A stretch of DNA of 64,000 nt. Origin: Roseimaritima ulvae (GTDB lineage: Bacteria > Planctomycetota > Planctomycetia > Pirellulales > Pirellulaceae). This document shows, piece after piece, positions 2,361-63,016 of this stretch. Positions within the stretch are counted from its first letter, which is position 1. Every line of letters begins with the position of its first letter. The stretch spans positions 7,855,404 to 7,919,403 of the forward strand of contig NZ_CP042914.1 of NCBI RefSeq assembly GCF_008065135.1. Reading direction: 5' to 3'. The translations under genes and the position numbers were made by a program. Under the pieces are notes generated by a model, which saw only the letters and a list, made by a program, of their open reading frames with translations, ran no database searches and was not told the origin of the DNA.

Positions 2361-3522
2361 CTTTGTAGAACTCAATGGCAGCAGGTGGGAGGTTGGTGGG
2401 AGTATTGAAGATAGTCGGTCCGCAGGACGGAAACAATTGCCGCCCCATGGCTAGCTCGTTTGACCCGTAGCCGCAGGAGCCTCAAAACGTTGGACTCAAA
2501 CCTATACGTGAGGCAGGCTCCGTAGGCGCAGGCGTGGTCCGCCGGGGGATGCAATCGAAGCGGACAGGTTGTGGACGACAAGTGTCATGGCAAACACCCG
2601 CGGCTGCCCGCGCCGGCGCCTGGCTCGTTTAACCCGTAGCCGCAGGAGCCTCAAAACGTTGGACCCAGACCAACACGTGCGACAGGCTCCGCAGGCGCAG
2701 GCGTGGTCCGCCGGGGGATGTAAGCGAAGCGGAGAGGTGGTGGACAACAAGTGTCATGGCAAACATCCGCGGCTGCCCGCGCCGGCGCCTGGCTCGTTTA
2801 ACCCGTAGCCGCAGGAGCCTCAAAACGTTGGACCCAAACCAATACGTGAGGCAGGCTCCGCAGGCGCAGGCGTGGTCCGCCGGGGGATGCAAGCGAAGCG
2901 GACAGGTTGTGGACGACAAGTGTCATGGCAAACACCCGCGGCTGCCCGCGCCGGCGCCTTCGGCTACGGGTTAAACGAGATTGCCGCAGGAGCCTCAAAA
3001 CGTTGGACCCAGACCAACACGTGCGACAGGCTCCGCAGACGCAGGCGTGGTCCGCCGGGGGATGCAAGCGAAGCGGAGAGGTCGTGGACATCAATTGTCA
3101 TGGCAAACATCCGCGGCTGCCCGCGCCGGCGCCTTCGGCTACGGGTTAAACGAGATTGCCGCAGGAGCCTCAAAACGTTGGACTCAAACCTATACGCGCG
3201 ACAGGCTCCGTAGGCGCAGGCGTGGTCCGCCGGGGGATGCAATCGAAGCGGACAGGTTGTGGACGACAAGTGTCATGGCAAACACCCGCGGCTGCCCGCG
3301 CCGGCGCCTTCGGCTACGGGTTAAACGAGATTGCCGCAGGAGCCTCAAAACGTTGGCCCAGACCAACACGTGCGACAGGCTCCGCAGGCGCAGGCGTGGT
3401 CCGCCGGGGGATGTAAGCGAAGCGGAGAGGTCGTGGACAACAAGTGTCATGGCAAACATCCGCGGCTGCCCGCGCCGGCGCCTGGCTCGTTTAACCCGTA
3501 GCCGCAGGAGCCTCAAAACGTT

Positions 3523-4832
3523 GGCTCTTCGTCGGTTTTAGTGGCTGAAATCGGGCTCCATCTTTAGGGCCCCACAATAAAACAAGATGCGGGTGCGGTA
3601 GTTCTCGAAGTTGCGAAAGCCGCGGGCCGCCGACTTGATGGCCTGCACTCGACCGTTGAAGGCCTCACTTTTGGCATTGGTGATGGAGTACTCGAAGTAG
3701 GCCAGCAAGCCGGCGAGGTGTTTCTTGAGCATTCTCGCAACCTTCTTGATCGGATCGAGTTTGCTACGAATGGCCCATGCGTACCAACGGTCAAAGAACT
3801 TCTTCGCCCAAGCGCCGCTGCGGTATGTCCAGAAGTCACGAAACATTTCCTTGATTCCCCACGCACGTGCCGTCTTGATCGCGACTTGCCGAATGTCTTC
3901 GATTTGCTTTTGCGTGGCATCATCAAGAGTCTCCTCGTTGTAGAGCCAAAGTTGACGCGTACCCGTCAGGTCATTAATGCCTTCGCTTCGGAGCAGTTTG
4001 TTCTCTCGGCGTCGAACCAGATCGACCGCTTCGCCGAGGTATTGGCTGATGTGGAAATGGTCGTGAACGATCTTCGCCTGGGGAACTTGTTTGACAATGC
4101 TGTTTCGAAAAGCTTGCCAGAAGTCCACGGCGACTGCCCGAATGCCCGATTTTTGCTCATCGGTGAGACTGTCAAAGAGTTTGTCACAAGATGCCTCGCT
4201 GCGGTCTTTGACGACTTCCAGCACTCGCGATCCTTCCAGGTCAACCATCAGCGACACGTAGTCCTGGCCTTTGCCAAAGCTCTTTTCATCAATGCCCAGG
4301 GTTTCAATCGGATCGGTATCACGACGCTGTAGTCCTCGCTCAACCCCGCGTTGCATGAGCTCGTGAGCGGTCTTCCAAGAGACCTTCAGTAACTTGGTCG
4401 CCGCCGAAACGCTGCTAGCCGCCTGAAGGACTTTGATCGCAAAAGCTTCAAACATCAGCGTGAATCGAGAGTGCTTCCCTGCCCAGGGTACGGCAATCGT
4501 TTTCACACCGCACCGATCGCATTTTGAACGAGGAATTGCCGCTTCGATAATGGTCTCGAACTGCATCGTGTCCAAGTGCCTCCACTGACGCGTTGGCGCG
4601 GTATCCGCACGAGAGCATTCGTCCTGGCACTCGGGGCAGCAGAGCTTGCCGCCAGAGTGACGTAATTGGATGACGACACTATTGGCTTCCATCTGAAGGT
4701 CAACGTTCTGGACCTGCCACTGGTCATCAAGTCCCAGCAGCAAACGATAGTGGGCATGTAGTTCATTCATGCTGCCATGATAGAAAATCCAAGACAGCTG
4801 GGACATTAGCCACTAAATTTGACGAAGAGCCC
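3523..4832 (-). mobile_element. ISL3-family insertion sequence, copy 1
   Basis: A 1310-bp element with one transposase on the minus strand. The ends are imperfect inverted repeats: GGCTCTTCGTCGGTTTTAG at the stop side and, reversed, GGGCTCTTCGTCAAATTTAG at the start side. It is flanked by a direct 8-bp duplication AAAACGTT (3515-3522 and 4833-4840), the size typical of ISL3 transposition. The target was the conserved anchor of a tandem-repeat unit, so the array was present before the insertion. The copy looks complete and potentially active. Confidence 0.93.
3538..4806 (-). CDS. ISL3-family transposase (copy 1)
   Basis: A 422-residue, full-length ISL3 transposase. The N-terminal zinc-binding region has paired cysteines (CCPEC at about 55-59, CDRCG at about 97-101) followed by a helix-turn-helix-like part (VSAATKLLKVSWKTAHELMQ). 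The DDE catalytic domain shows LGIDEKSFGKGQDYVSLM (first Asp), VAVDFWQAF (second Asp) and NAKSEAFNGRVQAIK (Glu), and ends with the family hallmark RGFRNFENYRTRILFYCG. It carries out cut-and-paste transposition of its own element. It is intact and differs from copy 2 by one residue (Pro instead of Ser in ADTAPTRQW). An alternative start at MNELHAHY, eleven codons in, is possible. Confidence 0.95.
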   Translation of the reverse strand: MSQLSWIFYHGSMNELHAHYRLLLGLDDQWQVQNVDLQMEANSVVIQLRHSGGKLCCPECQDECSRADTAPTRQWRHLDTMQFETIIEAAIPRSKCDRCGVKTIAVPWAGKHSRFTLMFEAFAIKVLQAASSVSAATKLLKVSWKTAHELMQRGVERGLQRRDTDPIETLGIDEKSFGKGQDYVSLMVDLEGSRVLEVVKDRSEASCDKLFDSLTDEQKSGIRAVAVDFWQAFRNSIVKQVPQAKIVHDHFHISQYLGEAVDLVRRRENKLLRSEGINDLTGTRQLWLYNEETLDDATQKQIEDIRQVAIKTARAWGIKEMFRDFWTYRSGAWAKKFFDRWYAWAIRSKLDPIKKVARMLKKHLAGLLAYFEYSITNAKSEAFNGRVQAIKSAARGFRNFENYRTRILFYCGALKMEPDFSH

Positions 4833-5534
4833 AAAACGTTGGACCCAAACCAATACGTGAGGCAGGCTCCGCAGGCGCAGGCGTGGTCCGCCGGGGGATG
4901 CAAGCGAAGCGGACAGGTTGTGGACGACAAGTGTCATGGCAAACACCCGCGGCTGCCCGCGCCGGCGCCTTCGGCTACGGGTTAAACGAGATTGCCGCAG
5001 GAGCCTCAAAACGTTGGCCCCAGACCAACACGTGCGACAGGCTCCGTAGGCGCAGGCGTGGCCCGCCGGGGGATGCAATCGAAGTGGAGAGGTCGTGTAC
5101 ATCAAGTGTCATGGCAAACATCCGCGGCTGCCGGCGCCGGCGCCTGCGGCTACGGGTTAAACGAGATTGCCGCAGGAGCCTCAAAACGTTGGCCCCAGAC
5201 CAACACGTGCGACAGGCTCCGCAGGCGCAGGCGTGGTCCACCGGGAAATGCAAGCGAAGCGAAAAGGCTGTGTTCAACAAGTGTCATGGCAAACACCCGC
5301 GGCTGCCCGCGCCGGCGCCTTCGGCTACGGGTTAAACGAGATTGCCGCAGGAGCCTCAAAACGTTGGATCCAAACCAATACGTGCGACAGGCTCCGTAGG
5401 CGCAGGCGTGGCCCGCCGGGGGATGCAATCGAAGTGGAGAGGTTGAGTACAACTAATGGTCAACAACATCCGCGGCTGCCCGCGCCGGCGTCTGCGGAGG
5501 CGCCTGACTTAATAGCATTGCACCCTCCCCCTGG

Positions 5535-6844
5535 GGGCTCTTCGTCAAATTTAGTGGCTAATGTCCCAGCTGTCTTGGATTTTCTATCATGGCAGCATGA
5601 ATGAACTACATGCCCACTATCGTTTGCTGCTGGGACTTGATGACCAGTGGCAGGTCCAGAACGTTGACCTTCAGATGGAAGCCAATAGTGTCGTCATCCA
5701 ATTACGTCACTCTGGCGGCAAGCTCTGCTGCCCCGAGTGCCAGGACGAATGCTCTCGTGCGGATACCGCGTCAACGCGTCAGTGGAGGCACTTGGACACG
5801 ATGCAGTTCGAGACCATTATCGAAGCGGCAATTCCTCGTTCAAAATGCGATCGGTGCGGTGTGAAAACGATTGCCGTACCCTGGGCAGGGAAGCACTCTC
5901 GATTCACGCTGATGTTTGAAGCTTTTGCGATCAAAGTCCTTCAGGCGGCTAGCAGCGTTTCGGCGGCGACCAAGTTACTGAAGGTCTCTTGGAAGACCGC
6001 TCACGAGCTCATGCAACGCGGGGTTGAGCGAGGACTACAGCGTCGTGATACCGATCCGATTGAAACCCTGGGCATTGATGAAAAGAGCTTTGGCAAAGGT
6101 CAGGACTACGTGTCGCTGATGGTTGACCTGGAAGGATCGCGAGTGCTGGAAGTCGTCAAAGACCGCAGCGAGGCATCTTGTGACAAACTCTTTGACAGTC
6201 TCACCGATGAGCAAAAATCGGGCATTCGGGCAGTCGCCGTGGACTTCTGGCAAGCTTTTCGAAACAGCATTGTCAAACAAGTTCCCCAGGCGAAGATCGT
6301 TCACGACCATTTCCACATCAGCCAATACCTCGGCGAAGCGGTCGATCTGGTTCGACGCCGAGAGAACAAACTGCTCCGAAGCGAAGGCATTAATGACCTG
6401 ACGGGTACGCGTCAACTTTGGCTCTACAACGAGGAGACTCTTGATGATGCCACGCAAAAGCAAATCGAAGACATTCGGCAAGTCGCGATCAAGACGGCAC
6501 GTGCGTGGGGAATCAAGGAAATGTTTCGTGACTTCTGGACATACCGCAGCGGCGCTTGGGCGAAGAAGTTCTTTGACCGTTGGTACGCATGGGCCATTCG
6601 TAGCAAACTCGATCCGATCAAGAAGGTTGCGAGAATGCTCAAGAAACACCTCGCCGGCTTGCTGGCCTACTTCGAGTACTCCATCACCAATGCCAAAAGT
6701 GAGGCCTTCAACGGTCGAGTGCAGGCCATCAAGTCGGCGGCCCGCGGCTTTCGCAACTTCGAGAACTACCGCACCCGCATCTTGTTTTATTGTGGGGCCC
6801 TAAAGATGGAGCCCGATTTCAGCCACTAAAACCGACGAAGAGCC
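5535..6844 (+). mobile_element. ISL3-family insertion sequence, copy 2 (inverted)
   Basis: The same 1310-bp element as copy 1 in the opposite orientation, with the same ends and an 8-bp target duplication CCCCCTGG (5527-5534 and 6845-6852). Removing it restores a hairpin-forming repeat, CACCCTCCCCCTGGGAGGG, continuing into GCGGGGAGGGTGC. The two copies are near identical; I see two nucleotide differences in the stretches I compared. The target duplications differ, so each copy arrived by its own transposition event. Confidence 0.93.
5561..6829 (+). CDS. ISL3-family transposase (copy 2)
   Basis: A 422-residue transposase, identical to copy 1 apart from Ser for Pro in ADTASTRQW. The zinc-binding cysteines, DDE aspartates (GIDEKSFGKG, VAVDFWQAF) and catalytic Glu (KSEAFNGRV) are all present, so it should be functional. 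With copy 1 it forms an inverted pair around 4833-5534, which holds most of the unit split by copy 1 plus the last three array units. Such a pair could move together as a composite transposon or invert by recombination; that is inference. Confidence 0.95.
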   Translation: MSQLSWIFYHGSMNELHAHYRLLLGLDDQWQVQNVDLQMEANSVVIQLRHSGGKLCCPECQDECSRADTASTRQWRHLDTMQFETIIEAAIPRSKCDRCGVKTIAVPWAGKHSRFTLMFEAFAIKVLQAASSVSAATKLLKVSWKTAHELMQRGVERGLQRRDTDPIETLGIDEKSFGKGQDYVSLMVDLEGSRVLEVVKDRSEASCDKLFDSLTDEQKSGIRAVAVDFWQAFRNSIVKQVPQAKIVHDHFHISQYLGEAVDLVRRRENKLLRSEGINDLTGTRQLWLYNEETLDDATQKQIEDIRQVAIKTARAWGIKEMFRDFWTYRSGAWAKKFFDRWYAWAIRSKLDPIKKVARMLKKHLAGLLAYFEYSITNAKSEAFNGRVQAIKSAARGFRNFENYRTRILFYCGALKMEPDFSH

Positions 6845-7048
6845 CCCCCTGGGAGGGTCGCGAGGAACGAGCGGGGAGGGTGCGTTGGACTTGCAGGTCG
6901 TCAGAACCATTGTCGGCAGCCGAAAAACCCTCCCCTCGCTAAGGCTCGACCCTCCCGGAGGGAGGGTGAAGTGAGGCCGTATGGCAATTCAATGCTACTA
7001 AGTCAGTCTCCTGCGGCTACGGGTTAAACGATCACATCCCGCATTCAT
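6845..7048. repeat. Intergenic repeats: GC-rich hairpin and a solitary array-type end
   Basis: There is no gene here. The left part is the right half of the hairpin repeat interrupted by IS copy 2. Next, 6925-6972 holds CCCTCCCCTCGCTAAGGCTC and GACCCTCCCGGAGGGAGGG, the motif also found at 290-336. At 7008-7032, CTCCTGCGGCTACGGGTTAA continuing ACGAT is the inverted terminal motif of the tandem-array and 420-bp repeat families, standing alone. It lies just downstream of the beta-helix gene's stop. Confidence 0.6.
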
Positions 7049-10345: not shown

Positions 10346-10617
10346 GTAGCATGGGCCCCTGGCCCGTGTCGATAAATTACCCCCCTCCCCAGGGACGTGA
10401 AATTTATTGTTGGAAGCTTGAGAAGCTACGAGAAACACGTATTTCCGCCGGGCTCGCCCCGGCGGGATAACAACTGGCGCCTACCATTGCCGTCCTATCC
10501 AACCTTTCTCCCAGCCAGACGACCGCTTCGCCTGCGGCGTAAACGCACACACCCCTAACGCCTGCATGATGGAAGGCGCTGTGATAGTTGCACACACGGG
10601 CCGGGGGCCCATGCTAC
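10346..10617. repeat. GTAGCATGGG inverted-pair element, cluster 1
   Basis: The gap between the convergent globin and nrfA genes is bounded by GTAGCATGGGCCCCTGGCCC on the left and, inverted, CACGGGCCGGGGGCCCATGC on the right. The interior includes further dyads such as CGCCGGGCTCGCCCCGGCGG. The same head-to-head arrangement recurs at three other places in the window. It may fold into a long hairpin at the end of both genes. Confidence 0.7.
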
Positions 10618-22273: not shown

Positions 22274-22325
22274 AAGTTCGAAAGCCGGTGGTCCAAAGTC
22301 TGGCGACTTCGGCTACGGAGGGAGT

Positions 22326-24496: not shown

Positions 24497-24560
24497 GATG
24501 CGATTTCGTGGCGATGCGATTTCGTGGCGATGCGATTTCGTGGCGATGCGATTTCGTGGC
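24497..24560. repeat. Four exact 16-bp tandem repeats upstream of the YTV-like gene
   Basis: GATGCGATTTCGTGGC occurs four times head to tail without change, 44-107 bp before the ATG at 24453. The unit length is not a multiple of three, which argues against coding. The place suits an operator or leader element of the YTV-like gene. Confidence 0.85.
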
Positions 24561-24813
24561 GATCGTGATCGACGCTCGGCATGTACTAAGTTTGGTTACC
24601 GGGCGAGGTTTATGCAAATGCTTGCAGAGCCCGCTGCCCACCCCAACTAATGTAGCTTCAAGCAGTTAGCGAAAATCAAAAAATTCCTAGGAAAAACGGC
24701 ACTTTTGCAAACCCACCCCCGGCATACCTTCGCCATCTTCCCTGCACTGTTTAGTCCACGCTACAACCGTTGTTTTTTCGCAACGCCACCCGCACTCCCC
24801 TTCGCTCGCCGCC

Positions 24814-31450: not shown

Positions 31451-31663
31451 GAGCATGGGGCCGTAGCATGGGGCCGTAGCATGGGCCCCCGGCCCGTGGG
31501 GGAACAAAGAGCAAGGGGAAAAGAGAAAGGGACGGAAAGGGACCAAAAGGACCGCGCAAGCGTGGACCGAAACCACCTGCCCTTTAGGTCCTTTAGGTCC
31601 TTTGTGTCCCTTTTTTCACTGCCCCACTGCCTAACTGCCACACGGGCCAGGGGCCCATGCTAC
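31451..31663. repeat. GTAGCATGGG inverted-pair element, cluster 2
   Basis: Three partly degenerate copies of GTAGCATGGGG stand at the left (31451-31497) and an inverted copy, CACGGGCCAGGGGCCCATGC, at the right. The interior is itself a rough palindrome: AAAGGGACCAAAAGGACC against GGTCCTTTAGGTCCTTTG and GTGTCCCTTTTTT. It fills the gap between the SecA paralogue's stop and the PQQ/TPR gene's start. No gene is visible here. Confidence 0.7.
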
Positions 31664-35524: not shown

Positions 35525-35787
35525 GTAGCATGGGTCCCCGGCCCGTGTCCTTCGCAGCATGGGCCCCCGGCCCGTGCCCTTCGTAGCATGGGCCCCCGGC
35601 CCGTGTCCTTCGTAGCATGGGCCCCCGGCCCGTGTAGGAGAAAAGGGACCCAAGGGACGGGGGATGCCGGGCATCGCCGGCGCCGTCCCTCTGGTCCTTT
35701 CCCCCTTGGGCTTGGTGCTGCCTATTGCTGACACGGGCCGGGGACCCATGCTACTTCTCTCGCACACGGGCCGGGGGCCCATGCTAC
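35525..35787. repeat. GTAGCATGGG inverted-pair element, cluster 3
   Basis: Four direct copies of GTAGCATGGGCCCCCGGCCC (first two degenerate) occupy 35525-35637. Two inverted copies, CACGGGCCGGGGACCCATGC and a near twin, lie at 35735-35787. The interior is again palindromic (GGGACCCAAGGGACGGGGG against CCCTCTGGTCCTTTCCCCC). It lies between the BBP7 terminator and the alpha-2-macroglobulin gene. The A2M frame stays open through part of it by chance. Confidence 0.75.
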
Positions 35788-41930: not shown

Positions 41931-42352
41931 TCGTTTAACCCGCAGCCGCAGGCGCCGGCGAGCGGCACCACAACGCCCCGGCGCCAAACCAACCGTCCAG
42001 CGGCACCGTCCAGAGTTTTGACAGCTTCGATCTGGGACCCCGCCGGGGTCCACGACACCTGACGGCTCGGCATTCCGGCGGTGGTCGCTGCGCTCGACCG
42101 CCGGCTATTTTCCGTAACCGCTCCGCGGTAGCGCCCCATCCCGGAGGGATACCAGCCAATAGCCGGTGGTCAGCGCAGCGCCACCACCGGATCCCACGAG
42201 CAACCCGCCCGCCGATCCCGAAGGGGATCGCACCGATAACGTAGCGCCGCGCCGGAAACACAGGTCGCGAAAACGCCGGCGCCTACGAAGCTTGCTGGCT
42301 TGGTCGCACGGCTCCCAAGCCAGCAAGCTTCTCCGGCTACGGGTTAAACGAC
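41931..42352. repeat. 420-bp inverted-end repeat element, copy A
   Basis: The element begins TCGTTTAACCCGCAGCCGCA and ends CGGCTACGGGTTAAACGA, i.e. inverted ends with one mismatch. Inside it has a rhombus of dyads: GGCGGTGGTCGCTGCGCTCG, GGTGGTCAGCGCAGCGCCAC and a perfect 17-bp stem GAAGCTTGCTGGCTTGG / CCAAGCCAGCAAGCTTC with an 11-base loop at 42287-42331. Copy B at 44515-44934 is nearly the same in the same orientation. No credible gene lies inside. Confidence 0.88.
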
Positions 42353-44514: not shown

Positions 44515-44934
44515 TCGTTTAACCCGTAGCCGCAGGCGCCGGCGAGCGACACCATAACGCCCCCGCGCCAAACCAACCGCCCAGCGGCACCGTCCAGAGT
44601 TTTGGCAGCTTCGATCTGGGACCCCGCCGGGGTCCACGACACCTGACGGCTCGGCATTCCGGCGGTGGTCGCTGCGCTCGACCGCCGGCTATTTTCCCTA
44701 ACCGCTCCGCGGTAGCGCCCCATCCCGGAGGGATACCAGCCAATAGCCGGTGGTCAGCGCAGCGCCACCACCGGATCCCACGAGCAACCCGCCCGCCGAT
44801 CCCGAAGGGATCGCAGCGAATACGCAGCGCCGCGGCGGAGACACAGGCAGCAAAAACGCCGGCGCCTACGAAGCTTGCTGGCTTGGTCGCACGACTCCCA
44901 AGCCAGCAAGCTTCTCCGGCTACGGGTTAAACGA
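44515..44934. repeat. 420-bp inverted-end repeat element, copy B
   Basis: It starts TCGTTTAACCCGTAGCCGCA five bases after the stop of the sigma-factor gene and ends CGGCTACGGGTTAAACGA. It matches copy A along almost its whole length, including the 17-bp stem (44870-44914), and is preceded by the same GAGCAA. The two copies are direct repeats about 2.6 kb apart. Confidence 0.88.
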
Positions 44935-53960: not shown

Positions 53961-54149
53961 CGTCGTTTAACCCGTAGCCGCAGGAGCCTACACACGCGTT
54001 GGCCGCACCATTCGATTCGATAGGCTCCGCAGGCGCAGGCGTGGTCCGCCGGGCGGTGTAATCGAAGGGTTTGGATTGGGTGCACCGATGGTTAACACAA
54101 ACGTCTGTGGCTGCCCACGCCGACGCCTCCGGCTAGGGGTTAAACGACG
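53961..54149. repeat. Solitary full-length copy of the tandem-array unit
   Basis: 189 bp starting CGTCGTTTAACCCGTAGCCG and ending CGGCTAGGGGTTAAACGACG, inverted ends with one mismatch. The inside matches the array units: GCAGGAGCC, CGATAGGCTCCGCAGGCGCA, GTGGTCCGCCGGGCGGTGTA and GTGGCTGCCCACGCCGACGC. This shows the natural ends of the unit, which in the array are reduced to one end per junction. Confidence 0.88.
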
Positions 54150-54589: not shown

Positions 54590-54672
54590 CCACCGTCGGG
54601 CGACGATAGCGAAGGGGCCACCGTCGGGCGACGATAGCGACGGGCCCACCGTCTGGCGACGGTAGCTACGGG
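54590..54672. repeat. Three tandem CACCGTCGGGCGACGATAGC units
   Basis: Units of about 28-29 bp, the last one diverged to CACCGTCTGGCGACGGTAGC. They fill the spacer between the LptD-like and dgkA genes and relate to the TCTGGCGACTTCGG repeats elsewhere in the window. Confidence 0.75.
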
Positions 54673-54678
54673 TCCAGC

Positions 54679-62006: not shown

Positions 62007-62229
62007 AGTAGCATGGGTCCCCGGCCCGTGTAAAAGGAGCATGGGTGAGCGGCCCGTGTCCGCAAAACCCGCAAGCCACTCCACGGTTGCACACCGGCTG
62101 TTCGTTCATGCTACGTGCGGTGCTTCTACACGGGCCGGGGACCCATGCTACGTACGCTGCGCTTCTACACGGGCCGGGGACCCATGCTACGTACGTTGCG
62201 ATTCTACACGGGCCGGGGGCCCATGCTAC
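62007..62229. repeat. GTAGCATGGG inverted-pair element, cluster 4
   Basis: Starting 2 bases after the MMPL stop: one clear and one degenerate copy of GTAGCATGGGTCCCCGGCCC on the left, and three inverted copies (CACGGGCCGGGGACCCATGC twice, then CACGGGCCGGGGGCCCATGC) on the right. The same forward-left, reverse-right order is seen in the other three clusters. No gene lies within. Confidence 0.78.
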
Positions 62230-62864: not shown

Positions 62865-63016
62865 TCGTAGCCGAAGTCGCCAAGACTTTGGAAACGCGGG
62901 GCAAGCCTCCAAACTCTGGCGAGTTCGGCTACGGCAGAACGCAGCGTCCAAACTCTGGCGAGTTCGGCTACGGCGGAACGCAGCGTCCAAACTCTGGCGA
63001 GTTCGGCTACGGCGGA
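62865..63016. repeat. CTCTGGCGAGTTCGGCTACG repeats, one inverted and three direct
   Basis: An inverted copy (CGTAGCCGAAGTCGCCAAGA) is followed by three direct copies, the last two 39 bp apart with the identical spacer GGAACGCAGCGT. They lie between convergent genes (the 178-residue protein and the aldolase) and can pair with the inverted copy. Confidence 0.8.

Follow-up and report, generated by a model that had tools for sequence, protein, structure and literature searches.

A tandem array near the start of a stretch of the Roseimaritima ulvae genome raises the question of what kind of element it is built from and how its units came to be joined. The stretch, called the window throughout, comprises 64,000 nucleotides of contig NZ_CP042914.1 (7855404-7919403; the genome has 8.2 Mb in a single contig). 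The array unit also stands alone at 53964-54146 (forward strand), where it is bounded by two inverted ends, and in the array each junction between neighbouring units carries only one of them. Most probably the unit is a non-autonomous element of the REPIN or BIME type (REP doublet forming hairpins, REP being the repetitive extragenic palindrome; bacterial interspersed mosaic element) which has a planctomycete RAYT (REP-associated tyrosine transposase) as its partner and which was amplified locally in tandem.

Layout of the array

The array consists of ten bodies of about 152 bp and nine junctions with one end apiece, three of them the left end (L) and six the right end (R). The bodies start at 2470, 2639, 2808, 2983, 3158, 3333, 3501, 4994, 5169 and 5344, which gives start-to-start spacings of 169, 169, 175, 175, 175, 168, 1493, 175 and 175; the seventh spacing, less a 1309-bp insertion sequence (IS) and its 9-bp repeat, is again 175. 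Nine of the ten bodies are whole (150-152 bp) and the tenth, that of unit 7, is split by the IS. Judged by eye, two body subtypes alternate over roughly the first seven units, and Tandem Repeats Finder scores a 350-bp period at 1892 versus 1642 for the 175-bp period. On the forward strand the composite as a whole extends over 2457-7030 and comprises an outer left end (CGTTTGACCCGTAGCCG, 2457-2473, its motif at 2457), bodies 1-6 (2470-3483; the L ends of their junctions lie at 2626 and 2795, the R ends at 2963, 3138 and 3313), a further L junction end at 3488 with the beginning of body 7 (3488-3522, the 9-bp repeat having its left copy at 3514-3522), the remainder of body 7 with bodies 8-10 (4832-5493, R junction ends at 4974, 5149 and 5324), and a second module (5494-7013). 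It is closed on the reverse strand by an intact outer right end (CGGCTACGGGTTAAACG, 7014-7030). Two IS copies lie inside it. An earlier note on this DNA, made from the letters alone, had recognised the ten units and the rule of one end per junction, which holds for all nine here, but it placed the end of the array at 5507 instead of 7014-7030 and overlooked the insertion in unit 7 (3523-4831). It had also described the inverted ends of the solitary copy as intact; both are there, but the right one reads CGGCTAGGGGTTAAACG, one base off the motif stated in that note.

A dispersed family with common ends

With the solitary copy as query, blastn returns 288 matches in the genome, and the exact 15-base end motif GTTTAACCCGTAGCC occurs 346 times (181+165). 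Chance is excluded as a source of these ends because the same motif read backwards does not occur at all (0+0). The 40 stretches fetched from the matches listed make up, together with the window, 43 examined places, a part of the genomic copies, of which 36 are arrays of two or more bodies and seven are single copies. A left end starts 42 of the 43 places and a right end directly closes 32. The same ends also bound other bodies: intact elements of 129-389 bp were found at nine of 20 further places with an exact end, and several of these nine combine halves that also occur in other elements, a mosaic make-up that recalls BIMEs. In the window, two 417-bp copies of an element with the same ends but another body lie at 41932-42350 and 44516-44933 (both forward, 96% identical). 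Short palindromic elements of roughly 60-95 bp with these ends are present in relatives, and the solitary copies examined there have inverted ends as well; a lack of such ends is what the earlier note had named first as a ground for its refutation. A high copy number and a dispersed occurrence, both singly and in tandem clusters, as the family shows them, are hallmarks of REPINs and BIMEs, and the unit is probably, as the earlier note proposed, a small dispersed and mobile element. As a separate observation, one genome (G016) holds short palindromic elements of about 63-72 bp.

Folded as single-stranded DNA, the solitary copy forms an outer stem from both ends together with inner hairpins (z -4.54), and two short relatives form near-perfect hairpins (z -8.5 and -11.9). 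A 149-nt piece which has no right end folds poorly (z -0.80), and the junction hairpins alone fold no better than shuffled sequences (z -0.23, 0.32). The element thus has inverted REP-like sites around a spacer and is predicted to fold as a single strand, as REPINs and BIMEs do. Each end would be a REP-like site composed of a conserved GTTTARC tag, often about five variable bases, and a small hairpin (for example GCC-GNA-GGC). In 55 of 64 loci a hairpin begins no more than ten bases from the tag, compared with a mean of 26.2 and a maximum of 36 in shuffled sequences, and the offset is five bases in 21 loci and zero in 18.

Target duplications of 3-6 bp, as expected of a miniature inverted-repeat transposable element (MITE) of the DDE type, are not clearly present in 21 loci: seven of eight tests gave p 0.38-0.90 and one (6 bp) p=0.039. 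A palindromic target was considered and rejected, as the complementarity of the flanks does not exceed that of permuted flanks at 40 places (p 0.21-0.46), in a test that is blind to a consensus common to all flanks and in which the right flank is a junction at 11 places. The bases just outside the ends are themselves non-random (loci L094-L133 and L229-L242), the left flank tending to GCGGCTAGCT and the right often being ATTGC(TCGG) or ANNNNGCC. An Rfam scan of the window returned a tRNA only.

The RAYT gene and its relatives

Thirteen loci with a Y1_Tnp domain are present in the genome, and one of them (6434236-6434871, 212 aa) is located inside an array of the units, by eye seemingly between the left and right parts of a single unit; none of the other 12 has an element end within 1.5 kb at up to two mismatches. 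The encoded protein passes the Pfam Y1_Tnp cutoff, and its HUH and tyrosine residues (H110, H112, Y180) are invariant in 14 of 14 homologues. A model of the Rhodopirellula maiorica homologue (mean predicted local distance difference test score, pLDDT, 81.9) matches best ISDra2 TnpA of the IS200/IS605 family (E 1.7e-5), with TnpA-REP (4er8) at rank 13 (E 1.5e-4). The HUH motif, the catalytic tyrosine and the predicted Y1 fold are those of a RAYT of the TnpA-REP kind, and as in REPIN and BIME systems the gene is adjoined by the sites.

This association extends across genera. Among 149 sampled genomes of the family Pirellulaceae, 31 contain a match to the RAYT at E 0.001 and 16 at 1e-45 or better. 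All 14 near-full-length homologues (51-100% identity, the R. ulvae gene included) are flanked on either side by [C/A]GTTTAAC ends, arranged in runs or inverted pairs, and the bases after the tag vary by lineage. One-ended tandem units, with periods of 31-80 bp, adjoin RAYT genes in other genomes too. Above 50% identity there is a fifteenth hit (L079), partial and broken, with one end only, and the more distant loci L078 and L080-L093 show no end pair at up to five mismatches in a search tuned to the ends of the host genome. Relatives were also drawn from a named collection (the best 80 of 381, of which 78 are labelled Planctomycetota). In these, CGTTTAAC lies within 500 bp of the gene in 37 of 80 and on both sides in 28, compared with one for the reversed motif, and its distribution on the tree of the relatives is clustered, with 7 changes versus 27.3 after shuffling. 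The wider motif GTTTARC, which was adopted after the ends of other loci had been viewed, is found within 300 bp on both sides in 62 of 80 relatives (reversed motif 0, a second control motif 0) and on at least one side in 67 (9 and 8, respectively), the second control being an 8-base pattern and hence a weaker control; far segments contain it in 9 of 128 cases. The tagged end GTTTAACNNNNAGCCGNAGGCG occurs in 46 of the 149 family genomes with up to 408 copies, versus at most one control copy per genome. Ten or more copies are present in 11 of the 16 genomes with a close RAYT and in 12 of the 133 without (Fisher 2.8e-7, at a cutoff of ten that was picked after the copy counts had been seen).

Origin of the arrays

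The rule of one end per junction applies across the examined places. In a recount restricted to body midpoints 120-400 nt apart and leaving aside the window junction split by the IS, 161 of 184 junctions carry a single end (73 left, 88 right), while 23 junctions, confined to five arrays, keep both ends with spacers of 17-101 bp; an earlier parse had given 186 junctions, 18 of which were scored as having none owing to partial units. Bodies are far more alike within arrays (0.938) than between them (0.697), and 33 of 36 arrays are monophyletic in a midpoint-rooted tree, the remaining sets being L112, L115 and that of the window, in which array and solitary copy were treated together. The arrays therefore grew in place.

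Many of the linkers resemble flanking DNA. At L-bearing junctions of 25 arrays, the 5-mer that precedes the left end agrees with the left flank of its own array at 3.16 of 5 positions compared with 1.83 by permutation; none of 20000 shuffles reached the observed value. Thirteen of the 25 match at four or five of the five bases, four of these being arrays with both-end junctions, so that many L-bearing linkers derive from the left flank. Both-end linkers copy the left flank over 33 of 34 bases in L121, 17 of 17 in L132, 74 of 101 in L114 and, for the best variant, 23 of 35 in L113. For R junctions, a comparison with the right flank gives p below 5e-5 over all 17 arrays, but seven of these close in a partial unit; the strict flank tests omit four left and seven right cases with partial units. 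In the window array the L linker matches its own left flank at four of five bases, whereas the R linker AGATT is absent from the present right flank (ATCAC). Duplication that includes flanking DNA explains the matches between linkers and flanks, and joining of bare elements does not. The arrays fit local tandem duplications that would have taken in flanking DNA, and these matches and the monophyly of the arrays tell against the end-to-end joining favoured in the earlier note. That note had named a derivation of both linker types by indels within one ancestral linker as a point that would tell against it; most arrays do not suggest such a derivation, but the R linker of the window array leaves its own case less clear.

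Two other histories were tried and rejected. Loop inversion as the origin of L and R junctions fits L108 with one mismatch and fits neither L129 nor L133. Transposition of whole arrays would make linker-sharing arrays nearest by body, which they generally are not, though the window array and L109 share AGATT and have fairly close bodies (0.785). No counted junction has both ends closer than 17 bp, though the both-end cases come from five arrays. Two ends side by side would form a long palindrome, and selection against such unstable structures may lie behind this pattern.

It is proposed that single elements are spread by the RAYT, an HUH/Y1 single-strand transposase whose own gene lies inside an array of the units, and that they would reach new sites as folded single strands with no clear target duplication, a feature that fits an HUH transposase acting on single strands. 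Action of the enzyme on the GTTTARC ends, and with it movement of the elements, is argued from the association described above. An element in place would then be amplified by tandem duplication. A breakpoint between one flank and the opposite end would leave one end per junction (L when the left flank is involved, R when the right), and a breakpoint between both flanks would keep both ends around a spacer of 17-101 bp. The units would afterwards be copied and homogenised within the array, and the one in the window was later interrupted by two ISL3 insertions. A right-flank origin of the R linkers is weakly suggested.

Alternative explanations

Several observations weigh against this account. 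Twelve of the 25 arrays fail to match their left flank at four or more of five bases, and the right-flank test gives a weak result when confined to the 10 clean arrays (1.90 of 4 versus 1.34, p=0.08, three of ten matching). GTTTARC is missing on one or both sides of the gene in 18 of 80 relatives, some of which have cut-off flanks. The 12 of 133 genomes that hold ten or more tagged ends and no close RAYT hit are a further difficulty, and G024, G016, G014 and G108 contain 173-408 such ends each; loss of the gene, missing contigs or another enzyme may account for them. The RAYT scores 51.3 bits against the NCBIfam model REP_Tyr_transpos, below its curated cutoff of 80, and falls outside that equivalog. 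Congeners show no empty site, only the right side of the query having been matched and no usable orthologous site obtained. Covariation lends no support (1 of 17 pairs, from one sequence), but it is uninformative because the stems hardly vary within the genome.

The closest competitor shares the same element and the same enzyme and differs in how the arrays arise: the RAYT would itself build them by a cut set a constant number of bases outside the tag, followed by rejoining to the hairpin foot at the opposite end, with no part for ordinary slippage or recombination. In 88 of 107 matches, 6 nt separate the tag and the hairpin foot that follows it, even though the letters in between differ among arrays (21 distinct 5-mers in 30, with an average match of 1.20 of 4), and runs of one-ended units adjoin RAYT genes elsewhere as well. 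The count of 88, however, reads both strands and thus includes L junctions in reverse and a few terminal flanks, and the flanks tend to GCGGC or GCC at the same distance, so that short homology alone could suffice; either short homology or an enzyme cut may set the constant distance. Array building by the RAYT is thus possible but doubtful. The same hesitation attaches to the broader idea that a planctomycete RAYT clade with its own class of REPs, marked by the GTTTARC tag and a short hairpin, both spreads elements and builds satellite-like arrays, with a putative cut about five bases outside the tag. If RAYT-built arrays were real, each junction would keep one tag and a few bases of the array's birth site. 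A quite different mover would be the transposase of a DDE-type insertion sequence bearing these CGTTTAACCCGTAGCCG ends, with the unit as its MITE. It could account for inverted ends and dispersed copies, but it is very improbable: the ISL3 copies nearby end differently (GGCTCTTCG), the target duplication it should leave is not clear in the eight tests described above, and the gene that shares the ends encodes a Y1/HUH protein in all 14 close cases. Local expansion of the arrays would also be expected of a plain satellite repeat that grew by slippage with no mobile element behind it, a still less credible reading given that both-ended single copies lie elsewhere, that the same ends enclose other bodies, and that copies are present in other genera. 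The core of attC sites resembles GTTTAAC/GTTAAAC, and this short likeness alone would speak for an integron cassette array; the units of 169-175 bp, with overlapping frames that look like noise, and the association with a Y1 gene make that the least plausible explanation of all. Tandem duplication of a RAYT-mobilised element remains the preferred account.

Relation to known REP systems

In Pseudomonas fluorescens SBW25, REPIN clusters are tandem repeats that include flanking sequences and adjoin RAYT genes (PMC3116915). The R. ulvae arrays have in common with them inverted REP pairs able to fold as hairpins, tandem clusters including flanks, and an adjoining RAYT gene, and differ in the GTTTARC tag, the longer body (about 185 bp in the solitary copy) and the mostly one-ended junctions. 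The GTAG and CGTC super-families likewise comprise tagged palindromes that occur as inverted dimers and as clusters with flanking DNA (PMC3733652); here, in contrast, the clade-wide tag is GTTTARC. GTAG occurs by chance in the ends of the host genome (CCGTAG) and not in those of most relatives (GGCAAG, AGTCAG, CCGGAG and others), being present on both sides in 38 of 80 relatives versus 62 for GTTTARC. As for CGTC, a T precedes CG in 41 of 42 cases and most flanks are not CGT; its occurrence at the solitary copy is a coincidence of the flank. The ends fit neither super-family. The same paper describes TIRtrons, in which Y1 genes are flanked by long inverted repeats, and reports REP families in Rhodopirellula baltica; the terminal inverted repeat motif of TIRtrons, GGGGWSAS, is not in the element ends.

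Like E. coli TnpA-REP with its REP and BIME sites (PMC8266576; 4er8), the system here combines an HUH/Y1 fold, inverted tandem sites and an enzyme gene beside the sites, but the sites, the tag and the sequence differ, and cutting is demonstrated for TnpA-REP whereas it is a prediction for the R. ulvae enzyme. Class 3 of the TnpA-Y1 proteins occurs chiefly in Planctomycetes, Acidobacteria and Proteobacteria, has atypical flanking structures, and is characterised by NHVH, YV..EQ and a CnGA foot, while subclass 2.7 has a median length of 213 aa, similar to the R. ulvae protein, together with [ND]HVH and GT[AG]G tags (PMC6006769). The host RAYT clade mostly has EH[TV]H, YV..NP and GTTTARC, and a comparison by eye of the 14-row alignment with the published table did not find the class 3 features in it. 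The GTTTARC tag, this RAYT clade and one-ended junctions were not found in a literature search that left supplements and most subscription papers outside its scope. The kind is already known: tandem REPIN clusters with flanks and with an adjoining RAYT are in print for P. fluorescens (PMC3116915), and flank-including clusters for GTAG families (PMC3733652). A GTTTARC-tagged family and one-ended junctions, in which the distance between the tag and the hairpin foot after it is nearly constant, look new.

Insertion sequences and other repeats in the window

The IS that splits unit 7 belongs to the ISL3 family (3523-4831, reverse strand, open reading frame 3538-4806, 422 aa) and is flanked by 9-bp direct repeats (CAAAACGTT). 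A second copy (5536-6844, forward strand, open reading frame 5561-6829) is inverted relative to the first, identical to it in 1307 of 1309 bases, and flanked by the repeats CCCCCTGGG. It interrupts the second module (forward strand), which has GACTTAATAGCATT at 5506 and the inverted partner of this arm at 6991, and into which unit 10 continues. In L113, L121 and L132, too, the last unit leads into the module, which is followed by a right end; L099 has the same order but lacks that end. The module consists of inverted GACTTAATAGCATT arms around a CCCTCCC-rich middle and occurs at array edges and within a 389-bp same-ended element, its sites being L099, L113, L121, L126, L132, L232 and 5494-7013 of the window.

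Other repeats lie apart from the array. A second palindromic repeat, GTAGCATGGGCCCCCGGCCCGTG, has 13 copies in the window (at 10346-10606, 31476-31652, 35525-35776 and 62008-62218), is GTAG-tagged like classic REPs, and is present in only one of the 13 Y1_Tnp loci of the genome (L043, some 1 kb away from the gene). Another short repeat, TCTGGCGACTTCGGCTAC, has five copies at 22299, 25633 and 62915-63016 of the window, three of them in tandem, and also occurs once in L043. A 28-bp tandem repeat at 54590-54676 has a core (about 54646-54671) to which 19 of the 22 matches in the congener G028 belong, and this core is, to judge by those matches, another dispersed repeat common to the genus. A perfect 16-bp tandem repeat (GATGCGATTTCGTGGC, 4.2 copies) is located at 24497-24563.

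Significance

How tandem REPIN clusters form was left open in the part of the SBW25 study drawn on here, which calls for a second mechanism (PMC3116915). About half of the 36 examined arrays have seams that can be traced to their own flank, which makes models of array birth testable by sequence. With its GTTTARC-tagged sites, this clade of RAYTs adds to the GTAG and CGTC tags known from REPs. The stretch that separates tag and hairpin varies from genome to genome and thereby provides natural pairs of enzyme and site for biochemistry.

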